The position numbers were made by a program, and so were the translations under genes. Shown here piece by piece: positions 1-43,886 of a stretch of DNA of 64,000 bases (the first letter of the stretch is position 1; each line of letters opens with the position of its first letter). The notes under the pieces are model-generated. The model had not been told where the DNA came from and searched no databases. It saw only the letters and a list, made by a program, of their open reading frames with translations. This stretch comes from an uncultured Eudoraea sp. (lineage in GTDB: Bacteria; Bacteroidota; Bacteroidia; Flavobacteriales; Flavobacteriaceae). The stretch is from contig NZ_CANLGX010000002.1 of the NCBI RefSeq assembly GCF_947490415.1, positions 372,001 to 436,000 on the forward strand, read 5' to 3'.

Positions 1-575
1 AGGTAAATAGCTATTAAAGCGCCCCATCCACCAACGGAATGTACCAGAGTTGAACCTGCAAAATCATAAAAACCTCCGTCTTCTCCACCTAATGTAGACA
101 GGAATCCGCCACCCCATTGCCATGAACCGGCTATAGGATATATAAGACCTACATAAATGATTGTAAAAATCATAAAAGGACCTATTTTAATACGCTCGGC
201 AACCGCTCCTGAGACAATTGTTGCGGCTGTGGCTGCAAACATTCCCTGGAACAGAAAATCTGTCCACCAGGTATAACCTCCATCGGCGTATTCAGCCGTC
301 ATGCCATTTTCAGGGGCGTCAATACCAAAACCTGCAAATTCGAAAATACCCATCGAACCTTCTTCAAATCCGGGGTACATTAAATTAAAGCCACCTATAT
401 AGTACAATAGCAGTCCTACTGTAATAATAAAGATGTTTTTAAAAAGTATATTAATTGTGTTTTTTTGTCTGGTGAGGCCAATTTCTAAAAAGGCAAACCC
501 TGTATGCATAAAAAATACAAGGGCGGTACATACCATCATCCAAACATTATTAGCTGTAAATAATCCTGCTTCCAT
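1..575 (-). CDS. amt: Ammonium transporter (Amt family), 3'-truncated by window edge
   Basis: Imports ammonium across the inner membrane. The visible 191 codons start MEAGLFTANNVWMMVCTALV and continue through four or more hydrophobic segments. The first membrane helix carries GFAFLEIGLTRQKN, the AMT1-like form of the Amt N-terminal signature. Near the truncated end, DFAGSTLVHSVGGW contains the conserved DFAGS...H..GG stretch with the first pore histidine. The C-terminal half lies outside the window. The gene follows glnK by 27 nt on the same strand, the classic glnK-amtB pairing in which the P-II protein gates the channel. Family identity is seen directly; transport specificity is inferred from the family. 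Confidence 0.95.
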   Translation of the reverse strand, partial: MEAGLFTANNVWMMVCTALVFFMHTGFAFLEIGLTRQKNTINILFKNIFIITVGLLLYYIGGFNLMYPGFEEGSMGIFEFAGFGIDAPENGMTAEYADGGYTWWTDFLFQGMFAATAATIVSGAVAERIKIGPFMIFTIIYVGLIYPIAGSWQWGGGFLSTLGGEDGGFYDFAGSTLVHSVGGWGALIAIY

Positions 576-602: not shown

Positions 603-941
603 TTAGTTAATTCCGGCCTGGCCGTTTTCCTTGGTTCTTATTCGAAAAGCTTGCAGGACATCGGAAACAAAGATCTTACCATCACCCACATTTCCTGTGT
701 AAGCGGCTTCCAGTACAGTGTTTACAGTTCTTTCAAGAAATTCGTCAGACACTACTATTTCCAGATACCTTCTTTGGATGTCTGTAGTACTGTATGAAAT
801 ACCACGATAGACATGACCTTGTTTTTCATTTCCTACTCCAGTTACGTCCCAGTAACTAAAGAAATTTACCTCAATCTCATGAAGTGCATTTTTCACATCA
901 TCAAATTTGGATTTTCTAATAATTGCTTCAACTTTTTTCAT
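603..941 (-). CDS. glnK: P-II family nitrogen regulatory protein
   Basis: A 112-residue P-II signal protein, the usual family length, beginning MKKVEAIIRKSKFDDVK. The T-loop region (about residues 35-58) contains YRGISY, with Tyr50 at the position of the uridylylated Tyr51 of enterobacterial P-II. The B-loop-like TGNVGDGKIFV (about residues 82-92) and C-terminal AFRIRT match the ATP/2-oxoglutarate-binding core. It precedes amt by 27 nt, so it is probably co-transcribed and regulates ammonium uptake. Upstream are a TATATTTG -7 box and the dyad ACCCTA-N13-TAGGGT, a likely control site. Whether Tyr50 is modified in this organism cannot be told from sequence. Confidence 0.95.
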   Translation of the reverse strand: MKKVEAIIRKSKFDDVKNALHEIEVNFFSYWDVTGVGNEKQGHVYRGISYSTTDIQRRYLEIVVSDEFLERTVNTVLEAAYTGNVGDGKIFVSDVLQAFRIRTKENGQAGIN

Positions 942-966: not shown

Positions 967-1015
967 CAAATATATATTAAATAAATTAACACCCTAAAAA
1001 AATTGGGGGTAGGGT
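967..1015 (-). promoter_or_regulatory. glnK-amt promoter with dyad operator
   Basis: Read on the minus strand: ACCCTA-N13-TAGGGT (1015 down to 991), 16 nt, then TATATTTG (974-967), which matches the Bacteroidota -7 consensus TAnnTTTG, then 25 nt to the glnK ATG. No TTG lies at -33; the proximal TAGGGT arm occupies that place. The same dyad with the same 13-nt spacing and nearly the same offset lies upstream of sucC (43812-43861). The box is seen directly; a bound activator replacing the -33 contact is inference. Confidence 0.6.
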
Positions 1016-1222
1016 TGTTATTTTTATAATAATTATAATTTGACCCCATTAATTTTAAGGGTATACTATTAAAAACAATAAAAAATGTTTATTTGATGAT
1101 TTTGTGAGGCAGTATTAACTAAACTTGTAGGAAAGTAAAAAAGCCTGATCATTTTTAATAAAACGGTGAGGCAATAAGAATGCTATTCTAAGGATAAAAA
1201 AGTGTTTGAATTACTGAGACGA

Positions 1223-43811: not shown

Positions 43812-43861
43812 ACCCTATTTATCGTTTTATTAGGGTAAATGCAGTCCGTTTCCTATTTTTG
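43812..43861 (+). promoter_or_regulatory. sucC promoter with dyad operator
   Basis: ACCCTA (43812-43817), 13 nt, TAGGGT (43831-43836), 17 nt, TATTTTTG (43854-43861), then 25 nt to the sucC ATG. The dyad arms, their spacing and the distance to the -7 box repeat the glnK-amt promoter (967-1015). There is no TTG at -33. Confidence 0.6.
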
Positions 43862-43886
43862 CTTCTTAACGAACACAAATTTTAAT

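Follow-up and report, generated by a model that had tools for sequence, protein, structure and literature searches.

A two-dyad promoter module as a putative nitrogen-control operator of glnK-amt and other ammonium-assimilation genes in Flavobacteriaceae

The promoter of glnK-amt in an uncultured Eudoraea sp. carries two dyads at fixed distances from a -7 box. Related sites are found upstream of several genes of ammonium assimilation and uptake, namely glnK-amt, GSII, GSIII, gltB and ald. Judged from sequence comparison, this two-dyad module is probably a nitrogen-control operator at which a bound dimer would activate transcription, with sucC lying outside the system. The targets GSII, GSIII, gltB and ald were found across Flavobacteriaceae, not every gene in every genome. 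An earlier note on this DNA had described a single dyad, ACCCTA-N13-TAGGGT, shared by the glnK-amt and sucC promoters. That observation is real as text and wrong as a shared operator, and it led to the conserved nitrogen-control module described here.

Results

The window, that is the whole stretch of 64,000 nucleotides analysed, begins within amt (1-575, minus strand), which encodes an ammonium transporter and is cut by the window edge (Pfam Ammonium_transp, 1.7e-111 for the whole gene, L227). It is the next gene downstream of the controlled gene glnK (603-941, minus strand), encoding a P-II protein of 112 aa (Pfam P-II, 2e-22). In the window's species, a porin gene (BBP2) lies downstream of amt. 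In the glnK promoter, the proximal dyad reads ACCCC-CAATTTTTTT-AGGGT (991-1010, minus strand) and the distal dyad ACCCT-TAAAATTAAT-GGGGT (1043-1062, minus strand). All eight genus members with this glnK have a dyad at -69 and another at -121 from the ATG. The two are 52 bp apart in the window. The -7 box TATATTTG (967-974, minus strand) is part of a match to the composite module GGGT-N31..34-ACCC-N30..34-TAnnTTTG (967-1046, minus strand). If this box spans -12 to -5, the position mapped for F. psychrophilum (PMC9723704), the dyad centres fall near -38.5 and -90.5. A weight matrix trained on 34 sites from named loci, with the four closest loci left out, scored the two glnK dyads at 24.6 and 23.9 bits, and no other place in the 64-kb window exceeded 12 bits. 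Elsewhere in the genome the composite matches once, at the GSII promoter (G000:C2:350285-350363), which the window does not include.

The space between the two glnK dyads (1020-1040) also holds a ATAAAAAT box. The box recurs at +34 to +36 between the dyads in 39 of 64 dyad-bearing glnK promoters. GSII promoters have GTTGATAA or GTTAATAA in its place, as do two promoters lacking the dyad (L316, L328). Boxes of this type may represent a second element.

Comparison of sister species defined the real element as ACCCY-N9-11-RGGGT with an A/T-rich centre and the core CCC-N11-GGG. A search for P-II proteins in 31 genomes produced matches in 15, including eight of the ten genus members (a distant second match in G152, at 28% identity, was set aside). 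Each of the eight genus glnK promoters contains two ACCCY-N9..11-RGGGT dyads, at positions -121 and -69 relative to the start codon. Among 80 named glnK loci, 79 were usable (L108 had no upstream DNA), and a dyad occurs within 300 bp of the glnK start in 64 of these, compared to a mean of 0.195 and a maximum of 2 in 200 dinucleotide shuffles. The regular expression found no dyad at the remaining 15 loci, one of which (L138) has a dyad before the preceding porin gene. Related species are non-independent samples in these counts. Whether 19, 20 or 21 bp long, the dyads share the one core, which was found in 61 of the 63 distal regions containing any CCC-N6..16-GGG. The ACC arms of the two dyads are most commonly spaced by 52 bp (28 pairs) or 53 bp (24 pairs), equal to five helical turns. 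The composite module matched 45 of the 79 loci and none in 50 shuffles. Two full dyads 50-54 bp apart were found at 22 of the 79 loci, while at 52 an ACCY lies some 51-54 bp downstream of a distal dyad, hence the proximal site is often degenerate. Several Flagellimonas/Muricauda loci retain the distal site with a degraded proximal one. A TTG in the -33 slot was found in six of 43 composite promoters, with 3.7 expected from shuffles.

The motif as given in the earlier note fared differently. ACCCTA-N13-TAGGGT is present as written at 991-1015 (glnK-amt) and 43812-43836 (sucC), followed by a TAnnTTTG box after N16 and N17, respectively. The whole genome (3,894,028 bases) has no further exact copy beside these two, which are both inside the window. 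Allowing up to one mismatch yields five places genome-wide, compared to 12 for a reversed control pattern, which means that the motif in this form shows no enrichment. Together with the -7 box it was found in one of 149 family genomes, namely its own. Conservation at glnK is restricted to the own genome (one of eight genus members, none of the 79 named loci), and at sucC to three of ten genus members and none of six genomes beyond the genus. The dyad recognized at glnK is real, with the correction that its left arm is ACCCC inside ACCCTACCCCC and not ACCCTA, and that a second dyad (1043-1062) had been overlooked. A dyad operator over the -33 region without a TTG, in a nitrogen context, is supported for the glnK-amt promoter. 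With the corrected motif, copies did turn up at amt and at the genes for glutamine synthetase and glutamate synthase, as the note had guessed.

Of the sucC look-alike (43812-43836, plus strand), the right arm, TTAGGGT, is kept in ten of ten genus members and both arms in three of ten; in the six genomes beyond the genus neither dyad form was found at sucC. The N9-11 dyad and the composite are absent from all 16 sucC promoters (the sucC counts leave out one locus, L040, for lack of an anchor). A single N13 operator common to glnK-amt and sucC, coupling nitrogen and TCA status, would draw on the two exact copies being the sole ones in the genome and lying at similar distances from the -7 box. 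We consider it highly improbable. The full dyad is unkept in sister species at both genes, the reversed control outnumbers the motif among near-matches, and the sucC upstream region scores -7.2 by the weight matrix (35 background upstream regions of the window reach at most 3.8). Moreover, ACCC and the -7 box are 42 bp apart at sucC, compared to 36 bp both at glnK of the own genome and at the G149 GSII. Given the arm conservation within the genus and the absence of either form further out, the sucC match is best read as a coincidence on an otherwise conserved core promoter. A shared operator, and with it the proposed nitrogen-TCA link, is not supported: under the refuting condition set in the note, conservation in sister species, the N13 dyad fails at both genes. 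The sucC core promoter block TTTTATTAGGGTAAATGCNGTCNGTTTCCTATTTTTGC (43826-43862) is nearly unchanged in nine of ten genus members and partly kept in the tenth (L033), a conservation that perhaps exceeds the need of a bare promoter.

Genome-wide searches point to the same set of nitrogen genes, with target proteins identified by Pfam and NCBIfam profiles. In 11 genomes, ACCCYN-W8-NRGGGT matched 22 places compared to three for the control. Eighteen of these belong to nitrogen genes, with 12 at glnK, three at ald, two at glutamine synthetase and one at gltB. Of the remaining four, three precede a SusC-like, a D-aminoacylase-like and an unknown gene, and one is inside an open reading frame. A looser pattern gave 82 places against 51 control places in 11 genomes, among the matches listed. 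In 14 further genomes, those reached through named loci, the strict pattern gave 23 places against 13 control places, seven of the latter in one genome. Fifteen of the 23 map to glnK, its porin gene, glutamine synthetase, gltB or ald (four of the glnK assignments were made by coordinates against named loci), and six are inside open reading frames. The composite matched 56 places in 31 genomes compared to 40 for the control, and two compared to two in the own genome. As this raw count is hardly enriched, the case is carried by the genes matched: GSII, glnK or porin-glnK account for 35 of the 56, a few of them assigned by sequence likeness only with the locus unopened.

Within the genus, the composite is found at glnK in eight of ten members and at GSII in eight of ten. 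Both promoters share one layout, with a distal dyad, 31-34 bp, a proximal ACCC site, 30-34 bp and TAnnTTTG; at the own-genome GSII the distal dyad is imperfect. The composite also precedes porin-glnK operons in G006 and G008. In these two genomes (G008, L261; G006, L266) and in Flavobacterium profundi (L232), the site is upstream of a porin-like gene preceding glnK, which makes this porin probably part of the glnK operon. Genus and family members also have dyads upstream of the genes for glutamate synthase, alanine dehydrogenase and the two glutamine synthetases. At six ald loci, chosen because the pattern matched there, the dyad is located 111-113 bp before the ATG. Exact patterns in the ten genus genomes were found at ald in four and at gltB in one, among the matches listed, which makes ald and gltB less regular targets. 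In Flavobacterium profundi a dyad lies between gltB and the porin-glnK-amt operon, in Aquimarina between gltB and a second glnK-amt, and in Christiangramia two dyads 53 bp apart precede GSIII.

Several matches stand apart from this set. A perfect dyad in the own genome (L142, 7755-7774; G000:C2:292754) precedes a SusC/RagA-type gene of a SusC-like operon. Neither this dyad nor the D-aminoacylase-like one (L144) has a sister copy among the matches listed, and the former possibly marks a nitrogen-scavenging locus or arose by chance. In Aquimarina, a perfect dyad (L230, 8097-8116) lies just 3' of a cluster that by eye resembles ABC-type uptake, possibly of nitrate, and precedes a small ORF of unknown function. 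Dyads of the form ACCCCTT..AAGGGGT were not counted as targets, being 20-29 bp past stop codons. Such look-alikes were seen after pnp (L163, 6595-6613; L164, 6286-6304) and before a permease (L162, 6767-6785; L181, 726-744), where the stop codons are those of a small secreted-protein gene. These conserved dyads are likely terminators mimicking the operator.

The taxonomic extent was assessed at GSII promoters. GSII was present in 16 of 34 genomes searched, and its promoters contained an exact dyad in five cases, an exact or near dyad by eye in 10 and none in six (the start codon of L325 in this set is only approximately placed). Among 60 genomes across the class, seven besides the own genome have a clear GSII, with one exact and one near dyad, both in one family. 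In Aureicoccus, glnK and GSII both lack the dyad. The predicted site is widespread in Flavobacteriaceae, absent from some lineages such as Aureicoccus, and perhaps present beyond the family.

Discussion

The conserved geometry suggests how the module might work. One dimeric DNA-binding protein would occupy both dyads cooperatively on the same face of the DNA. The distal site would anchor the protein, while the proximal site would place it where sigma would otherwise contact the -33 region. The bound protein, contacting polymerase at the -33 position, might then activate the promoter, most likely under nitrogen shortage. The protein is probably an activator substituting for the -33 contact, a direction suggested by the fixed distance to the -7 box and by the distal dyad being better kept than the proximal one.

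The same module could instead be bound by a repressor that blocks the -33 region until nitrogen shortage releases it, as happens with AmtR and GlnR elsewhere. The proximal dyad covers the -33 region, so that a repressor positioned there would look like an activator, and two phased sites would also fit repression by looping. We regard this as unlikely, though well worth weighing. A -33 TTG is no more frequent than chance in the composite promoters, which would leave them weak without help, and the Flagellimonas/Muricauda loci that keep the distal site with a degraded proximal one also argue against a blocking protein. A different reading takes the dyads as terminators or RNA hairpins, given their place between two minus-strand genes, crcB and glnK. 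However, they fold no better than shuffles (z-scores of 0.00 and -0.60), no T-run follows them on the minus strand, and they are upstream of the inferred start site. Dyads also occur between the divergent GSII and GSIII, a place that calls for no terminator. The folding scores and the absence of an Rfam match in the window led us to discard this reading, which has very little probability left. An activating dimer remains the preferred explanation.

For the protein that binds the module, an Lrp/AsnC-family member, either paralogue A (encoded beside ald) or paralogue C, is a doubtful candidate. In the own genome, ald and glnK each have an Lrp gene nearby. All 10 site-bearing Flavobacteriaceae genomes that were checked contain both A and C, and C has 83-96% identity among five genomes. 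Paralogues were assigned in 5 genomes and, out of a set of 13, in the 11 that have any, leaving out the partial match L208. However, G171, G064, G020 and G004 contain A and C just as well, though they have no site at GSII (nor, in G171, at glnK), and G191 has a near-dyad at GSII yet no HTH_AsnC match. An Lrp regulator is thus not established. Paralogue B was rejected as missing from the site-bearing G008, G043, G099, G137 and G172, and paralogue D as missing from the site-bearing G043. Clustering of open reading frames within 4 kb on each side of glnK at 80 loci recovered an Lrp gene at four. No autoregulated regulator gene was seen among the opened matches, within the matches listed, and, for the MerR family, a SoxR-like CCTC-N10-GAGG consensus was found in none of 79 glnK promoters.

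Among the papers listed in the literature searches, none gave an account of nitrogen-gene switching in Flavobacteriaceae or of this operator. The part of PMC9723704 used here covers the TAnnTTTG box along with sigma motifs, but no nitrogen operator. Having the operator and its targets defined would enable the putative regulator to be fished directly from cell extract. The module may also serve as a worked case of regulation at the Bacteroidota -33/-7 promoter.

Known nitrogen regulators share individual features with the module. NtrC with sigma-54 governs the nitrogen regulon of Proteobacteria through two dyads upstream of glnK-amt and glnA, and two dyads precede glnK-amt here as well. However, the promoter here is of the TAnnTTTG type, and neither the NtrC consensus TGCAC-N7-GTGCA nor a -24/-12 element was found in any of the 79 glnK promoters. 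TnrA/GlnR, of the MerR family, control glnA, amt-glnK and gltAB in Bacillus through a short dyad, resembling the short dyad at overlapping nitrogen genes described here. Their TGTNA-N7-TNACA, though, occurs in five of the 79 promoters compared to 0.5 in shuffles, is absent from the own promoter and is not the conserved element. The Lrp/AsnC family, including E. coli Lrp and AldR, regulates gltBD and ald, and an A/T-rich centre, phased sites and overlapping targets are points of likeness. The E. coli Lrp consensus was nonetheless found in none of the 79 promoters, the dyad here is 19-21 bp long, and the distribution of Lrp genes gives no support. NtcA of cyanobacteria binds a dyad near -41 of nitrogen promoters that have a -10 box and no -35, and the proximal dyad here is near that position, again without a -35-type contact. 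GTA-N8-TAC is at chance level, however (three of 79 compared to 3.0), and the arms here are ACCC/GGGT. It is conceivable, though we hold this only tentatively, that Flavobacteriaceae, and perhaps further Bacteroidia, use a master regulator of their own. Such a regulator would not be of the NtrC, NtcA, GlnR, AmtR or Lrp kind and would act via a fixed two-dyad module (CCC-N11-GGG, five turns, a weaker copy and the -7 box), replacing the -33 contact of sigma-A.
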